Below the pieces are notes generated by a model. It made no database searches and was not told the DNA's origin. It worked only from the letters and a program-made list of their open reading frames with translations. The translations under genes and the position numbers were made by a program. Shown here piece after piece: positions 37,059 through 42,448 of a DNA stretch of 52,072 nt (position 1 is its first letter; each line of letters starts with the position of its first letter). This DNA is from Polaromonas sp. (GTDB taxonomy: Bacteria; Pseudomonadota; Gammaproteobacteria; Burkholderiales; Burkholderiaceae_C), in contig JAPLPS010000070.1 of NCBI GenBank assembly GCA_026400075.1, forward strand, positions 1 to 52,072, in the 5' to 3' direction.

Positions 37059-37964
37059 TCAAGCACTTGCCGTGTGCGGCATACCGCTGGCGCAAACGCG
37101 GCAACTGACCTGCCCGAGCCGACGGTGGTAAGCCACAGTGGTACCGGCGGCAATTTCAGCGCCGCAATGGTCGCAAACGGTGGCGTCCATCAGGGTTTCG
37201 CTGGCAAAACCCTCGATAAAAATTTCTTCCTCGCCGACCCGGCGCGGCCAGACTTCGGTCTTGACCATGTCGGGGCGAAAGTGTTCCTCGATGCGCACCC
37301 AGCGGCTGATCTGCCCAGGGCTCAGCTTCTGTGCCTGCAGGGCCTGCAGCATCAGCGCCTGGCGATGCTCAAACAGGGCCTCGGAAATAATCATCCAGTG
37401 GTGCGCGTTGCGCGGGCGGTCGCCAAAATAGACTTTTTCGCCAGTCACGCACTGCTTCATGAAGGAATACTGCTTGTCAGTCACCCTGTCCTTGGTGACG
37501 CGCCCAAAAAAAGGACTCAGCAAGGGGTCTGCATACACCCGCTCATAAAAATCTTCCAGCACCCGGCGCACAGTCTTGCCGTCTTCGAGCTCCGCCCAGA
37601 GTTCGGGGTCGGGCTCCGGGTAAGGCAATTCCGCAGAGGCAGCGGCGCAAGTGGCGGCGGCGACAGGCTCGTCAAACAGCGCCGGATCGACCAGGTCGGA
37701 CTCCAGCGCAGGCGCAATGCTCATGTCGCTCACGGCTTTGCATTTACAGGGAAGAAAATAGCGCTTTTCCAGCAAATGAGCCGCCAGTCCGCGCTGGGCC
37801 TTCTCGGGAACGTTGCCCTCTATGCACAAGGACAGACAGGTATGGCAAGCCCCGGCCTTGCAGGAAAACGGCACATCAATGCCCGCCCGCAGCAACGCGT
37901 TCAGCACCGTTTCACCGGCCAACGGCGTCACGGCCCGATCACCATAGCGCAGCGTCAGGCTCAT
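37059..37964 (-). CDS. 2Fe-2S ferredoxin-truncated haemoglobin-zinc ribbon fusion
   Basis: A protein of 301 residues from ATG 37964. Residues about 1-80 are a plant-type 2Fe-2S ferredoxin: SCKAGACHTC (C35, C40, C43) and LPCKC (C73). After a linker, about 125-245 are a truncated haemoglobin, with DFYERVYADPLLSPFFGRV, YFGDRPRNAHHWMIISEALF (probable proximal histidine in HHW) and IEEHFRP. The C-terminus has CDHC and CRVC, a zinc-ribbon pattern. Fusing a one-electron donor to a globin suggests a nitric-oxide dioxygenase/reductase or oxygen-sensing role (inference). It lies one base after a roadblock gene. Confidence 0.8.
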   Translation of the reverse strand: MSLTLRYGDRAVTPLAGETVLNALLRAGIDVPFSCKAGACHTCLSLCIEGNVPEKAQRGLAAHLLEKRYFLPCKCKAVSDMSIAPALESDLVDPALFDEPVAAATCAAASAELPYPEPDPELWAELEDGKTVRRVLEDFYERVYADPLLSPFFGRVTKDRVTDKQYSFMKQCVTGEKVYFGDRPRNAHHWMIISEALFEHRQALMLQALQAQKLSPGQISRWVRIEEHFRPDMVKTEVWPRRVGEEEIFIEGFASETLMDATVCDHCGAEIAAGTTVAYHRRLGQVSCRVCASGMPHTASA

Positions 37965-37965
37965 T

Positions 37966-38379
37966 TCAGTCTTTCTGCAACGCGGCCAGTTCGGACAAGG
38001 CCCGCGCCGTATTGCGGGTTTCAAGAATCAGCTGACCGAGTTTGGCCGCCGGACTGGCCGCCACCGCCAGCACGCCGACATCGCCGGCGCGGGTCAGCAG
38101 CATAGGCCCCAGGCTGCCGTCAAGGATGATCTGGCGCAGATCGCCCCGGCTGACCTCCTTGGCCGCGCGATTGGCCAGCGCCAGCAAGGAAGCGCACATC
38201 GCGCCGAACCGGTCGGCATCCACTTCTTGGGACATGACGGAGGCGATGATCAGCCCGTCGTGGGAGACCAGCGCAGTCGCCTCGACGTTTTCCGATGCCG
38301 CGCACAGGCCGCGCAAAGTGGAGCGGGTTTTGCTGGCAAGGACTTCGGCAGAACTTTTTTCAGAATTCTCAAAATTCAT
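37966..38379 (-). CDS. Roadblock/LC7 domain protein, MglB-like
   Basis: A protein of 137 residues. SENVEATALVSHDGLIIASV, FGAMCASLLALANRAAKE and GDVGVLAVAAS follow the roadblock/LC7 pattern; bacterial members such as MglB regulate small Ras-like GTPases. The start ATG 38379 is in the TTCAT target that borders a mobile-element hairpin, so its upstream region was replaced by element A. It abuts the ferredoxin-globin fusion gene downstream. Confidence 0.8.
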   Translation of the reverse strand: MNFENSEKSSAEVLASKTRSTLRGLCAASENVEATALVSHDGLIIASVMSQEVDADRFGAMCASLLALANRAAKEVSRGDLRQIILDGSLGPMLLTRAGDVGVLAVAASPAAKLGQLILETRNTARALSELAALQKD

Positions 38380-38716
38380 CAGTTGACTTCCCGGGAAACC
38401 CCGGCCTTCAGGCTAGGGAGGTAGAGGGCGGCAGCGAAGCTGTCTGGCTGTTGGATTTTCCTTTGGCTTTGTTTGACCATACGTGTCTTTCCTGTGTTTA
38501 AAATCGGCTGCGCTGGACTTTTGCGGTGACGCACCCAGCGCAAAAACTTGTATTTCCCCGTTTTTCCGTTGGCTGCGAGTGCTCTCGTGGTTCCGGCTGG
38601 CAGGTAGTAATACTGGAAGCCAGCGTGAAGTAAGGTGCTTAACAAGTCAAGCGCCGGTTCCGGGCATGGAACCCCGTACCAGGGAATCCCCTTCCTTTCA
38701 GGAGGGGAGGATGTCA
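38380..38716 (+). mobile_element. Element A: transposase-less IS200/IS605-type remnant with tnpB-like 3' end
   Basis: It begins right after TTCAT with a hairpin at 38398-38418 (CCCCGGCC-TTCA-GGCTAGGG, partly degenerate). It ends with CCCCTTCC-TTTCA-GGAGGGG-AGGATGTCAA (38688-38716), the ending characteristic of IS200/IS605 tnpB right ends. Inside, AGCGTGAAG (38622-38630) matches the place where TnpB C-terminal coding overlaps its omega RNA, but the frame is broken. No transposase or intact tnpB remains. It is inserted between the two roadblock genes, on the opposite strand, with no target duplication visible. Confidence 0.6.
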
Positions 38717-38779
38717 AAAAACCCATTCAGTTATAAAACCGCAGATACCGCCTGAACTGCAGCCTTTTTCCAAGACGAC

Positions 38780-38797
38780 TCAGGCGGCCCCGCCTGA
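38780..38797 (-). terminator. Weak hairpin after the second roadblock gene
   Basis: TCAGGCGG-CC-CCGCCTGA directly follows the stop of the 38801-39208 gene. It is a perfect palindrome but lacks a T-run on the minus strand, so termination would be weak. The bases 38717-38779 hold nothing else I can name. Confidence 0.35.
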
Positions 38798-38800
38798 AGC

Positions 38801-39208
38801 TTACAGAGCCCCTTCAATCTCCGGCATAGCCATGCGCGACTTGGTCAGCACCATGCCCAGATTGGCACCCTTGCGGCAGACAAAGCAGGCAACTTGCTGC
38901 TGGCGTTTGCCGCGCAGGAAGATGTGGATCAGGTTGTTGCTGTTGACGATGATTTCCTGGAAATAATGATCGTCATTGTTCTCGGGCAGGCCACGGGCCT
39001 TGCGGAAAATCGCTTCAATCGCCGACACGTTCGGGCCCTGGAACAGGTCGGCCGTTGCAGCGGCCAGCAGGTCAAACACTTCGCCGGGATGCGAATCGAC
39101 CGTTTTCATGCTCAGGATCATGCCGGAAGACAGGTCAACATAGCCAGCAGCGACACATTCAGGAATGCTGGTAACGGCTTTTTGCAATGCGGTGTCAAGA
39201 GTGCTCAT
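38801..39208 (-). CDS. Second roadblock/LC7-like protein
   Basis: A protein of 135 residues. LQKAVTSIPECVAAGYVDLSSGMILSM, VFDLLAAATADLFQGPNVSAIEAIF and QEIIVNSNNLIHIFLRG have the roadblock alternation of helices and strands, but divergent. It is about 26 bases from the ABC-phosphatase gene upstream, and separated from the first roadblock gene by element A. It may form a heterodimer with it on the small GTPase (inference). Confidence 0.65.
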   Translation of the reverse strand: MSTLDTALQKAVTSIPECVAAGYVDLSSGMILSMKTVDSHPGEVFDLLAAATADLFQGPNVSAIEAIFRKARGLPENNDDHYFQEIIVNSNNLIHIFLRGKRQQQVACFVCRKGANLGMVLTKSRMAMPEIEGAL

Positions 39209-39234
39209 AGGGAACTTTCTTTGGAGGGGTTGCT

Positions 39235-40713
39235 TTAAAAATCTGCATCAGGTTCCAGAGAAGGAACTGAAGCTATTGTGCCTGCGGAAAGCTGAGCTAC
39301 CAGCCCCGGAAACTCTTTTAGAAAATTCTCCTGCGCCAGCGACTGAATCATGCCCGCTTCCTGCTGCCTGACGTATTTCATCGCGGCCTCGCCGCTGACC
39401 TGCCCGGCCTGGAGCCAGATCCAGTAGAGACCTAGCACCGTTCCGGTGCGCCCCAGACCGGCTTTGCAATGCACCGCCACCGTTTCTCCATTCTGCAGGT
39501 AGCGGTCTATTGCATGGCACAAAAAACAGGCATCTTCCAGCGAAGGGGCATGCATGTCAGGCATCGGCACAGCCGTGCATTGAATGTCGTAGTTGGCCGC
39601 CAGCGCTGCATCAAAAGGCGTTTCAGTGAGCGAAATAAGGCGCGTAATGCCCGCGTTGCGCAACGCTTGCAGGTCTTGATGCACGCTGCGCAGGATGCCT
39701 GGAAAAGGCGTTCCCGCCACCTTGCCGCCAATCAGCCAGACAAAGCCGCGTGGCCCGCAAAACGCACTTTTTGCTGCCGGGCTGGGCTGCAAATGCTGCA
39801 GGCGCTGCCACGACTCCAGCGCGGGCGCGGGCGCTGGCCCGGCCGTGGACGGCGTCACGGCCACAACCTCCAGCGGCGCCCTTGTTTGTTCGACCGGTGG
39901 CTTTGGCGGCGGCTCGCTGCGAACCGGTGGGACGGCATCCGCATCCGCATCGGTCTCTGTGCTTTGCCCGCTTATGCCTGACTCAGGGCAGGAACCAGTG
40001 CGCACATAGTGCTGCGCGGCGACGGTCTGCGGGCGCAAAAAGAAATCGTCTTTCGCGGCGCTTTCCTGAACTACGCCATCGGCAAGCAGGATCACCTTTC
40101 CGGCGATCTGGCGCGTCTGGGCCAGATGATGGGACACCATCAGCACTGCCCGGCTTCTGGCCAGAATTTCCAGCGTGGCTAAAACGGCCTGCGCACCGTC
40201 AGGCGACATTTTGACGGTCGGTTCATCGACCATCAGCAGGGCTGGCGCTGGCAGCGCCTGCCTCAGAATGGCAATGATGCGCTGCTCGTGCAGCGGCAGA
40301 TCAATCACCGGCATGGTCAGCTTGTCCGCCAAAATTTCCTGTCCGTTTTGCAGCAGAAAATCGCGCACATGCTCAATCTGCAACACCCGCGTCAGGCTGG
40401 AGCGGTGCGGCAATTTGGCAATCATGTTGTCCTGCACCGTAGCCATCAGCAGATACGCTTTTTGCGTCACGATCGCTGGCCTGCGTGCAGGGCACAAAGG
40501 CACGCCCCGGTAAATGGCCCGCCCCCAGTTGCGCATCGAAGAGTTGGCATCGTTCAAGCCCGCCAGCGTGCGAATCAGCGTGGATTTTCCGGTGCCCGAG
40601 GGGCCGAGCAGCACCGTGCAGCCCTGCGCCGGAATGGACAAACTCACATCAAGCAGGATGGTACGTGCAGCAAAAGCGACGCCAAATCCCTCCAGTTCCA
40701 GAACCGGCGTCAC
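39235..40713 (-). CDS. ABC ATPase fused to a dual-specificity phosphatase
   Basis: A protein of 492 residues. Residues about 1-240 are an ABC-type ATPase: GPSGTGKS (37-44), Walker B ALLMVDEPT and the His switch SHH. The signature motif is degenerate (LPLHEQ instead of LSGGQ). A Pro/Ala-rich linker (about 245-310) leads to a tyrosine/dual-specificity phosphatase domain with VHCKAGLGRTG (CX5R, cysteine about 416). No membrane domain is encoded. Such a fusion suggests signalling, with the ABC part as a scaffold or sensor and the phosphatase as output. It overlaps the GTPase gene by four bases (ATGA). Confidence 0.8.
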   Translation of the reverse strand: MTPVLELEGFGVAFAARTILLDVSLSIPAQGCTVLLGPSGTGKSTLIRTLAGLNDANSSMRNWGRAIYRGVPLCPARRPAIVTQKAYLLMATVQDNMIAKLPHRSSLTRVLQIEHVRDFLLQNGQEILADKLTMPVIDLPLHEQRIIAILRQALPAPALLMVDEPTVKMSPDGAQAVLATLEILARSRAVLMVSHHLAQTRQIAGKVILLADGVVQESAAKDDFFLRPQTVAAQHYVRTGSCPESGISGQSTETDADADAVPPVRSEPPPKPPVEQTRAPLEVVAVTPSTAGPAPAPALESWQRLQHLQPSPAAKSAFCGPRGFVWLIGGKVAGTPFPGILRSVHQDLQALRNAGITRLISLTETPFDAALAANYDIQCTAVPMPDMHAPSLEDACFLCHAIDRYLQNGETVAVHCKAGLGRTGTVLGLYWIWLQAGQVSGEAAMKYVRQQEAGMIQSLAQENFLKEFPGLVAQLSAGTIASVPSLEPDADF

Positions 40714-41303
40714 CGGGCAGCGGTCGCCGTCAGCGGGGAGGAGATGGCAGGAAAGCGTGCCGCCATCTCAAACTGGGCCACCATGACCAGCAGCAGGCTG
40801 CGAACATGGCTGGCAACGCGCGCATCGAGCTCAATCACCGGCGGCGTCACGCCGCAAAAGACAATTTTTTTCTTGCGCAGGTAATCGTCGTACAAACCCA
40901 GGGAAACTCCGGGATTCTCATCAAGGTGCGTCACCCCGATGGCCAGGGGCAGGCGATTGCCGGGAACGCGCTCACTGATGGCTTGCAGGTAATGCTCCAG
41001 TTCGGCCAGCGCGTTGGGGCTGGCGTGATTCAGGATCAAGGCCACCCCTTTGGCCTGCTGCAGCAAAATGTCCCACATGAAGTCAAAGCGATCCTGGCCC
41101 GGTGCGCCGTACAGTCGCAGCTTGTCGCTGCCCGACAGGTGCAGCACCCCCACATCCATAGACACCGTCGTGTGCGTCTTGAGGCTGCGGGTTTTATCGG
41201 TAGCCTCTACATCGGTAGAGACAACATCAATGTCCGAAATGCTTTGAATCGCCTGGGTTTTTCCTGCACCCACAGGCCCCATGAATAAAACGCCCCATTC
41301 CAT
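40710..41303 (-). CDS. Small Ras-like GTPase (COG2229/MglA-like)
   Basis: A protein of 197 residues. GPVGAGKT (9-16) is the P-loop; YGAPGQDRF is the G3 motif with glutamine; THLD in GVTHLDEN occupies the G4 place where Ras-like proteins have NKxD. These match bacterial small GTPases of the MglA / SRP-receptor-beta-like group that work with roadblock proteins. It overlaps the ABC-phosphatase gene and lies eight bases after the helical protein gene, in one operon with the two roadblock genes. Its role here may be polarity or motility control (inference). Confidence 0.8.
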   Translation of the reverse strand: MEWGVLFMGPVGAGKTQAIQSISDIDVVSTDVEATDKTRSLKTHTTVSMDVGVLHLSGSDKLRLYGAPGQDRFDFMWDILLQQAKGVALILNHASPNALAELEHYLQAISERVPGNRLPLAIGVTHLDENPGVSLGLYDDYLRKKKIVFCGVTPPVIELDARVASHVRSLLLVMVAQFEMAARFPAISSPLTATAAR

Positions 41304-41310
41304 GCGCTAC

Positions 41311-41685
41311 CTACTTTCTGTCCATCAAACGCGACCATACCTTGCCCAGAAACGAGGCCGTTGCCGCTGGCAGTTCAGGACTTGCGAGTGGATCGGATTT
41401 TGGCAAAGCAGCCTGCTCAGACGTCAACACGGCCCCCACAGGGCTGATATGCCCCTTCGCATACAAGTTTTCCAGCAGCGCATAAGCCACTTGAGGCTGC
41501 ATATCCAGCATGGCTGGAATCAGCATGCCAACCGAAGGTTTTCTGGCTAAAAGCGCGCAGATGCGGGTTAGATTCGGGGCCGTATCCTGCAGCAGTTCGG
41601 ACAAGCCAGGCCAAGAGGTGAGCTGCAACAGGCTCAACTGCAGGTTTTGTTCCAGAAAGGACGACTTGTTAGCGAGAGTTTGCAT
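41311..41685 (-). CDS. Small helical protein, possible winged-helix, of the GTPase module
   Basis: A protein of 124 residues. LTRICALLARKPSVGMLIPAMLD then VAYALLENLYAKGHISPVG has the helix-turn-helix-wing spacing seen in winged-helix domains, though weak. The C-terminal part is disordered. It is the first gene of the minus-strand module and lies directly downstream of element B and of the 136-base stretch 41686-41821. I do not recognise the family. It could be a regulator of the operon or a partner of the GTPase. Confidence 0.5.
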   Translation of the reverse strand: MQTLANKSSFLEQNLQLSLLQLTSWPGLSELLQDTAPNLTRICALLARKPSVGMLIPAMLDMQPQVAYALLENLYAKGHISPVGAVLTSEQAALPKSDPLASPELPAATASFLGKVWSRLMDRK

Positions 41686-41821
41686 ATTTCCCTTGTGGAT
41701 TTTTTGACTGTTTTCATTCGCACCAGTAAGCCTGAAACTGCAGCTATTTGCAACAGGTGTAACACTAGCACTTTATTGTTCCGCTTACAAAGTAAGCAAT
41801 GCAGCTTTCGTGCCCAGTCAT

Positions 41822-42249
41822 CAGTTTGCGCGTGAAACCTCGGCCGTCAGGCCGGGGGGAGGCAGAGCGTGGAACACGAAGTGTTCCTTGGCTAGCGGTG
41901 GCGTACCTGTCGCGTCCGTTCTACCACCCGTTGAAAAAGGTGCAGGCTTCTCACCTGCTCGGCCTTTCGGCTAACCCGTAAGGGTCTTGTGCCCCACGCC
42001 TTGCGGCGTATGTCCCCTCGGGAATGTCAGCAACCGGCTCCTACTCTTGCGAGTAGCGACTAAAACCTTCGCCCCTTTACCTTTGGGCTGCATGATTAAA
42101 GCCTTGCAGAGCAGCAAACTGAGGAAGCATTTGCTGGTGCGTCTGAACGACCTGTGACTAACGTAGCGGACTGGATACCGCTTTCCCTGCTTCAACCTGG
42201 CTTTTTGGATTTCTCCTCAAGCTCCGCCTTTTAGGGCGGGGTAGTTGAC
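41822..42249 (-). mobile_element. Element B: ORF-less IS200/IS605-type element with HEARO/omega-RNA-like RNA
   Basis: Bounded by TCAT at 41818-41821 and ending near GTTGAC at 42249. The left hairpin CCTCGGCC-GTCA-GGCCGGGG (41838-41857) and right hairpin CTCCGCC-TTTTAG-GGCGGGG (42222-42241) are IS200/IS605-like ends. Reading the minus strand, many short hairpins occur, three capped by GNRA loops: CTACTC-GCAA-GAGTAG, ACGCC-GCAA-GGCGT and GCC-GAAA-GGC, plus GGAACAC-TTC-GTGTTCC. This is the texture of a large structured RNA such as the IscB guide (HEARO/omega) RNA. No iscB, tnpB or transposase frame survives. The RNA identity is inferred from pattern. Confidence 0.55.
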
Positions 42250-42448
42250 GATGTGCAATGAATAAGGAAGGCATCGGGAAAATCCCCGAGCCTCATTGGA
42301 CTATATCGCATGCGTATAAATGATTGATTTGGCGCAAACCCTTCTCCGCTTGTCACATTTCCGACTACAAGCTTGCGTCAAATCAAACTTTCCAATGCCA
42401 TACCAGCCCGCAGCTGTTGCATCACAACAACGATACGGGCCGACAGGT
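42250..42448. other. Gene-free stretch between element B and metY
   Basis: About 200 bases with no credible frame. Together with 41686-41821 and element B it makes a gap of about 760 bases without a protein gene. The part 42270-42330 is AT-richer and may hold a promoter or the terminator region of metY, but no convincing signal is visible. Confidence 0.4.

Follow-up and report, generated by a model that had tools for sequence, protein, structure and literature searches.

Many beta- and gamma-proteobacteria, among them pathogens and environmental species, possess Group 3 MglA systems, for which little is known of either input or output. In the available part of the 2014 description by Wuichet and Sogaard-Andersen (PMC4316618), these small GTPases of beta- and gamma-proteobacteria have a G4 motif without lysine and a DAR G5 motif, are accompanied by one or two adjacent MglB homologues, and have a partner protein made of a receiver-like N-terminus and a winged helix-turn-helix (wHTH) C-terminus. 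Other described systems that come close are the Group 1 MglA/MglB pair, the actinobacterial conservons (CvnA-D) and HGbRL of Methylacidiphilum, a globin-roadblock fusion proposed to be a sensor (PMC4476040). Here, we analysed a stretch of 52,072 nucleotides from Polaromonas sp. (contig JAPLPS010000070.1, hereafter the window), in which six minus-strand genes between positions 37059 and 41685 join an MglA-like GTPase to an ABC (ATP-binding cassette) ATPase-phosphatase fusion, two roadblock proteins and a ferredoxin-globin. The six genes form a real operon, the order of which is kept across many beta- and gamma-proteobacteria. This extended operon is, provisionally, an apparently undescribed extension of a known small-GTPase class: a literature search for roadblock-globin-GTPase or ABC-phosphatase-roadblock systems found no description, subscription papers being mostly outside its coverage.

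The original prediction, made from the DNA letters alone, had described this six-gene set, and its account was accurate: six intact minus-strand open reading frames (ORFs) span 37059-41685, with domains and coordinates confirmed. Transcription begins with WH (41311-41685), a wHTH-like protein of 124 amino acids (aa), and continues with the MglA-like small GTPase (40710-41303, 197 aa, PF03029), ABC-DSP (39235-40713), a fusion of an ABC ATPase and a CX5R phosphatase (ABC_tran and DSP families), RB2 (38801-39208, 135 aa), a divergent roadblock protein recognized from its AlphaFold model, RB1 (37966-38379), a canonical roadblock/LC7 protein of MglB/CvnB type (PF03259), and finally FdGlb (37059-37964), which combines a 2Fe-2S ferredoxin, a truncated globin and a zinc-ribbon-like domain (Fer2, Bac_globin). 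The FdGlb span is counted from its ATG; the listed ORF begins at an earlier TTG. The intergenic gaps, in transcription order, are 7, -4 (GTPase and ABC-DSP overlap), 26, 421 and 1 bases, which agrees with the predicted tight spacing apart from an inserted element, located in the 421-base gap.

A search of 84,980 species genomes for homologues of RB2 gave 257 confirmed relatives, and the best 79 of the 257 loci were annotated with purpose-built profile models. As the loci were picked via RB2, the frequencies hold for RB2-bearing loci and not for all bacteria. All six genes stand in the canonical order in 30 of the 79 loci, under about 20 taxon labels, which indicates that the set is not a chance assembly. 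These taxa include Polaromonas, Curvibacter, Hydrogenophaga, Diaphorobacter, Acidovorax, Gallionella, Sulfuritalea, Methylotenera, Thiobacillus, Nitrosomonadales, Marinobacter, Halospina, Wenzhouxiangella and Lysobacterales, among others. The genes are thus co-conserved well beyond Comamonadaceae, which removes the objection, raised in the original prediction itself, that they might not be. In many Comamonadaceae, two extra downstream genes encode a WH-roadblock fusion (WHRB) and another roadblock protein (RB4).

Pairing was counted in the 68 loci whose flanks were long enough. WH accompanies the GTPase in 50 of 50 loci and is missing from all 18 loci without it; RB1 is found in 46 of the same 50 and again in 0 of 18 (p=6e-13). 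ABC-DSP, for its part, lies beside RB2 in 67 of the 68 loci. By these presence/absence counts, the GTPase has RB1 and WH as its companions, and ABC-DSP has RB2. Hence, the two roadblock proteins are not equivalent: RB1 never occurs without the GTPase, whereas RB2 follows ABC-DSP, also where the GTPase is missing. Without the other genes, the RB2-ABC-DSP pair is found in Stenotrophomonas; Hydrogenophaga and several Comamonadaceae (Acidovorax-type) have it as a second copy. FdGlb lies beside this pair without a GTPase in Azonexaceae, Gallionella, Acinetobacter junii and Hydrogenophaga.

That FdGlb works with RB2 and ABC-DSP is best supported by their co-occurrence at the level of genomes. In a sample of one family, 27 of 401 genomes, belonging to 18 of 141 genera, contain RB2. 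The globin/zinc-ribbon part of FdGlb was detected in 12 of the 401 genomes, and all 12 are RB2-positive. Since this association is counted across whole genomes, it avoids operon linkage; moreover, FdGlb and RB2 are far apart or on separate contigs in 8 of the 12 genomes. For the unlinked cases, the hypergeometric p is 3e-11 over 8 genomes and 2e-5 over 5 genera, values that assume independence and therefore overstate significance. In the same sample, 25 of the 26 genomes with a strong match to the ABC-DSP phosphatase domain also have RB2, and ABC-DSP is found in 25 of the 27 RB2-bearing genomes.

WH, the GTPase and RB1 would constitute a first switch. Judged by their sequences, they appear to match the Group 3 MglA systems in most of the features that can be compared with the available part of the description (PMC4316618): a PGQ G3 motif without Asp, a lysine-less G4, a DAR G5, an adjacent MglB-like protein (RB1) and a beta/gamma distribution. 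The GTPase (Pfam PF03029, E 3e-7) reads GPVGAGKT in the G1 P-loop, TTVSMD, APGQDRF in G3, without Asp, THLD in G4, without Lys, and DAR in G5. In an alignment of 23 homologues these motifs are invariant or nearly so, with P68, G69, Q70, D160 and R162 strictly kept. In a tree built without published Group 3 MglA reference sequences, the operon GTPases and their Comamonadaceae paralogues separate from Streptomyces CvnD and from the Deinococcus/Thermus GTPases (98/97). Three further paralogues are encoded in the genome: one has a WH-like protein as its only neighbour (C368), one lies with roadblock, PAS, phosphonate-binding-type and response-regulator-like/wHTH proteins (C401), and the third with WH-like and roadblock-like proteins (C273).

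RB1 carries a Robl_LC7 domain (PF03259, E 4.6e-16) and is homologous to CvnB (hhalign E 4.8e-15); it is likely to be the partner of the GTPase. WH seems to correspond to the C-terminal part of the conserved Group 3 partner protein. This C-terminal domain recurs in longer relatives, which measure 210-250 aa or, in other clusters, about 365 aa. The predicted model has a wHTH-like topology, and a fold search of this model against the PDB gave no significant match. Similarity to DUF742, the family of CvnC, is weak and does not establish homology: the best Pfam E value is 0.0019, in 3 of 28 members and with the window WH below the cut-off, and hhalign gives E 0.0078 with a probability of 5%.

With respect to the Group 3 systems, the window set differs in that WH seems to keep the C-terminal part of the partner only, and in that an ABC-phosphatase and a divergent roadblock lie inside the set and a ferredoxin-globin after it, genes to which the available part of the description makes no reference (PMC4316618). 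The Group 1 MglA/MglB pair likewise joins a Ras-like GTPase to a roadblock regulator, but the GTPase belongs to another group, and no polarity partners were noted (RomR, SgmX and others were not sought individually). Of the original comparison with the MglA/MglB polarity switch, the GTPase-roadblock family assignment stands, and the polarity pair gives way to a match with the beta/gamma Group 3. A role in polarity or motility finds no support within the operon itself. The likeness to conservons extends to a roadblock protein (RB1 and CvnB), a small GTPase, a small protein in the CvnC position and heme proteins downstream, as cytochrome P450 genes are found after several conservons. However, none of the six genes encodes a CvnA-type histidine kinase, so that the operon is not a conservon, and its GTPase falls in a separate clade.

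The second switch would comprise RB2 and ABC-DSP. Two roadblock proteins had been predicted, and two are retained: RB1 is the sole one identified by sequence, and RB2 is a roadblock by its predicted structure. No significant Pfam match, Robl_LC7 included, was obtained for any of 23 RB2 homologues (0/23). The AlphaFold model (pLDDT, the predicted local distance difference test, 88) was compared to the PDB, and the best 50 matches listed were all roadblock-family proteins (Streptomyces roadblock 3kye, MglB, MglC and LAMTOR chains). A sequence relationship of RB2 to RB1 or CvnB was rejected, since sequence comparison was negative and only the fold agrees. RB2 is the most conserved gene of the operon. 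On Ruegeria plasmids, the genes of RB2-like proteins (L210 6998-7399, L211 7019-7420; about 40% identity, annotated as hypothetical only) are flanked by dynamin-family genes; a Ser/Thr kinase is encoded downstream and, in L210, an FHA protein as well.

ABC-DSP (ABC_tran E 6e-13; DSP families down to E 6e-19) consists of a soluble ABC-type ATPase domain (residues ~1-240), a Pro-rich linker and a dual-specificity-type phosphatase domain (~320-480). In 21 homologues, Walker A, the Walker B DEP, the H-loop His and the phosphatase loop HCxxGxGRTG are kept; in the window, this loop reads HCKAGLGRTG (HCX5R), with Asp386 as the conserved acid. Among solved structures, DSP-type enzymes come closest to the phosphatase domain (25xa, E 1.7e-21; human DUSP23). 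In all 21 sequences, the LSGGQ signature is replaced, by LPLHEQR in the window.

FdGlb (Fer2 E 6e-12, Bac_globin E 2e-9) is made of an N-terminal plant-type 2Fe-2S ferredoxin, a truncated globin matching group 1 truncated hemoglobins, and a C-terminal zinc-ribbon-like domain with four Cys. The cluster ligands Cys 35/40/43/73, the proximal His188, the B10-like Tyr140 and Cys 264/267/288/291 are invariant in 22 homologues. Long relatives in Nitrosomonadales and Lysobacterales contain complete FAD- and NAD-binding domains together with the 2Fe-2S and globin parts. In the Polaromonas and Curvibacter forms, a decayed barrel without flavin motif is left, the RxYS flavin motif being lost in the Comamonadaceae forms; both domains are absent from FdGlb of the window, Marinobacter and Halospina. 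The reductase part thus seems to have decayed or been lost, while the sensor-like parts (iron-sulfur (Fe-S), heme and zinc ligands) stayed fixed. The long relatives resemble flavohemoglobins and PRK05713-like ferredoxin reductases in that a globin is joined to 2Fe-2S, FAD and NAD domains; the differences are a truncated-type globin at the C-terminus, a zinc ribbon and, in the window FdGlb, the absence of FAD and NAD domains. HGbRL shares the coupling of a globin to a roadblock, but it is a direct fusion with another globin type, and it has neither a ferredoxin nor an ABC-phosphatase. Directly before FdGlb, several beta/gamma operons contain a CxxCxxCC gene (YkgJ-like, metal-chelating; L126 9612-10010, L160 10071-10463 and similar). 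Oceanospirillaceae operons without FdGlb have an ABM-domain gene after RB1.

The gas- or redox-responsive switch suggested in the original prediction is the best current explanation, resting on association: the ligands of FdGlb are intact, it co-occurs with RB2 even when unlinked, and an independent cluster in Thermus (below) makes a similar combination. We give an even balance of probability to the reading in which the operon encodes a cytoplasmic heme/Fe-S-gated module, with FdGlb as input, two coupled nucleoside triphosphatase-roadblock switches, one of which controls a phosphatase, and an output linked to cyclic di-GMP (c-di-GMP) or pili. Switch 1 would consist of the Group 3 MglA-type GTPase, its MglB-like regulator RB1 and its wHTH partner WH, and switch 2 of the ATPase-phosphatase fusion regulated by its own roadblock, RB2. 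A gas ligand on the heme of the globin, or else a redox change in the 2Fe-2S cluster, would alter the contact of FdGlb with RB2/ABC-DSP, which would gate the dephosphorylation of a target by ABC-DSP. The state of the GTPase would also be gated, through a shared complex, and the output would probably be a behaviour linked to c-di-GMP or type IV pili. From partner contact onward we infer each step, including a sensor rather than an enzyme role for FdGlb, the direction of the signal, the phosphatase target and the output. More tentatively, and with somewhat less than even confidence, we propose an undescribed signalling class, in which a soluble ABC ATPase-phosphatase with its dedicated RB2 would answer to a heme/2Fe-2S sensor and be connected to a Group 3 GTPase, such that O2, nitric oxide (NO) or redox state sets protein phosphorylation via roadblocks. 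For Group 3 MglA systems, the ferredoxin-globin of this operon is a candidate input, and the ATPase-gated phosphatase, which has a roadblock to itself, is a candidate for a second output arm. Were this reading correct, bacterial roadblock proteins would regulate something besides Ras-like GTPases, and gas/redox sensing would be tied to small-GTPase signalling, a pairing that seemingly arose separately in Thermus.

Several observations weigh against this module. Twelve loci hold WH-GTPase-ABC-DSP-RB2-RB1 without FdGlb nearby, so that a globin in the vicinity is not a requirement. The co-occurrence counts were corrected for phylogeny by collapsing to genera only. The inserted element ahead of RB1-FdGlb interrupts the window operon and may uncouple both genes from it. 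No c-di-GMP or pilus gene is present in the window operon, and most operons are without one. Finally, FdGlb could be an enzyme. It would then be an NO dioxygenase or another O2/NO-consuming electron-transfer protein in a stress-protection unit, with the switches controlling its use; globins with an electron donor are commonly NO dioxygenases in the available part of one report (PMC3820574), and the complete 2Fe-2S/FAD/NAD reductase chain of the deep relatives L118 and L134 recalls a rearranged flavohemoglobin. We consider this unlikely, as FAD and NAD domains are absent from the window, Marinobacter and Halospina proteins and RxYS is lost in Comamonadaceae, with ligands invariant, and as the strict association of FdGlb with RB2/ABC-DSP is more what one would expect of a signalling partner than of an enzyme acting on its own.

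A regulator of cell polarity or type IV pili like MglA/MglB, to which the globin and the phosphatase would be accessory inputs, is also on the unlikely side, to a slightly lesser degree. It would account for the homologous pair of GTPase and GTPase-activating protein folds. When an orphan mglB, placed in Group 3, was mutated in Snodgrassella, the bacteria spread differently in soft agar, an effect which the authors read as type IV pilus-dependent, and colonisation was changed as well (PMC11112851); in addition, two T2SSE-family (pilT/pilU-like) ATPase genes lie on the same contig as the operon, at 9.6-12.2 kb. Group 3 is, however, distinct from Group 1 MglA in the available part of its description (PMC4316618), the tree sets the operon GTPase apart from those of Deinococcus/Thermus and from CvnD, and no pilus or polarity gene is in the operon or recurs beside it. 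The two halves, WH-GTPase-RB1 and RB2-ABC-DSP(-FdGlb), could instead be independent modules that share one operon with no mechanistic link, as the solitary RB2-ABC-DSP pairs of Stenotrophomonas, Acidovorax-type genomes and Hydrogenophaga, and the solitary WH-GTPase pair of C368 in this same genome, would suggest. Nevertheless, almost every full operon has ABC-DSP and RB2 between the GTPase and RB1, in two classes and with small gaps, and we hold such independence to be quite improbable. That ABC-DSP belongs to an ABC transporter or to an anti-phage defence system is very improbable indeed. Its ATPase domain scores best with PstB-type ATPases, and PADLOC gave weak cross-hits to mad3, AriA and mad8. 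Yet the ABC signature is not conserved, which argues against an ordinary transporter ATPase, and none of the six genes encodes a permease, so that the transporter reading was rejected; the defence reading was rejected too, since the PADLOC hits fall in the ATPase part of ABC-DSP and the other five proteins had no match.

Combinations of related parts occur elsewhere and, like HGbRL, the P450 genes after conservons and the RB2-like proteins of Ruegeria, are parallels that favour the heme/Fe-S-gated module. A cluster of the Thermus brockianus plasmid pTB1 (L215 4126-11381) encodes a DUF4388 protein, a GTPase, three protoglobin-family proteins, a roadblock, and EAL and HD-GYP proteins, and is an independent heme/small-GTPase/c-di-GMP set. 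A literature search combining 'roadblock' and 'protoglobin' found no paper. PAS-GGDEF-EAL genes lie directly downstream of the operon in Wenzhouxiangella, Sulfuritalea and Curvibacter; together with the Snodgrassella phenotype, they make c-di-GMP or type IV pili a candidate output, without proving it for this operon. In one genome (G056), a Ser/Thr protein kinase domain is fused to a Group 3-like GTPase in a single 592-aa frame (L028 8937-10715), which adjoins roadblock, PAS and periplasmic-binding-type proteins. After the operon, three lineages encode a glyoxalase-like protein with a DUF2621/PCP_red-like C-terminus (L129 11539-12177, L104 10809-11468, L105 10954-11613), a Pfam match that was read for the L129 copy.

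Two mobile elements are inserted in the locus, and neither breaks a coding frame. The one between RB2 and RB1 (~38385-38720, ~336 bases, no strand assigned) is a non-autonomous IS200/IS605-type element of the TnpB family (IS1341-like; IS, insertion sequence). A 91% identical copy is found at G000:C284, and its ends are common to TnpB-coding elements at C75 and C288, in which TnpB was named from the C-terminal zinc-finger and DRDVNAAKNI motifs. Without the element, the RB2-RB1 gap would be ~85 bases, like that of relatives (~30-210 bases, median 90). An Rfam search of the element gave one sub-threshold, chance-like match only. At 38371-38400, where the element stops ~6 bases short of the RB1 start codon, it provides a GGGAAG, a possible ribosome-binding site; the same sequence stands ahead of another start codon in the C284 copy. 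Upstream of WH, a non-autonomous, internally deleted IscB-type element (41820-42250, minus strand) contains a HEARO (omega) RNA at 42006-42249 (RF02033, 85 bits). It has no IscB gene, its 95% copy is at G000:C211, and its ends match those of an IscB-coding element at C77. Several related copies, together with an intact IscB-coding element, are present elsewhere in the genome.

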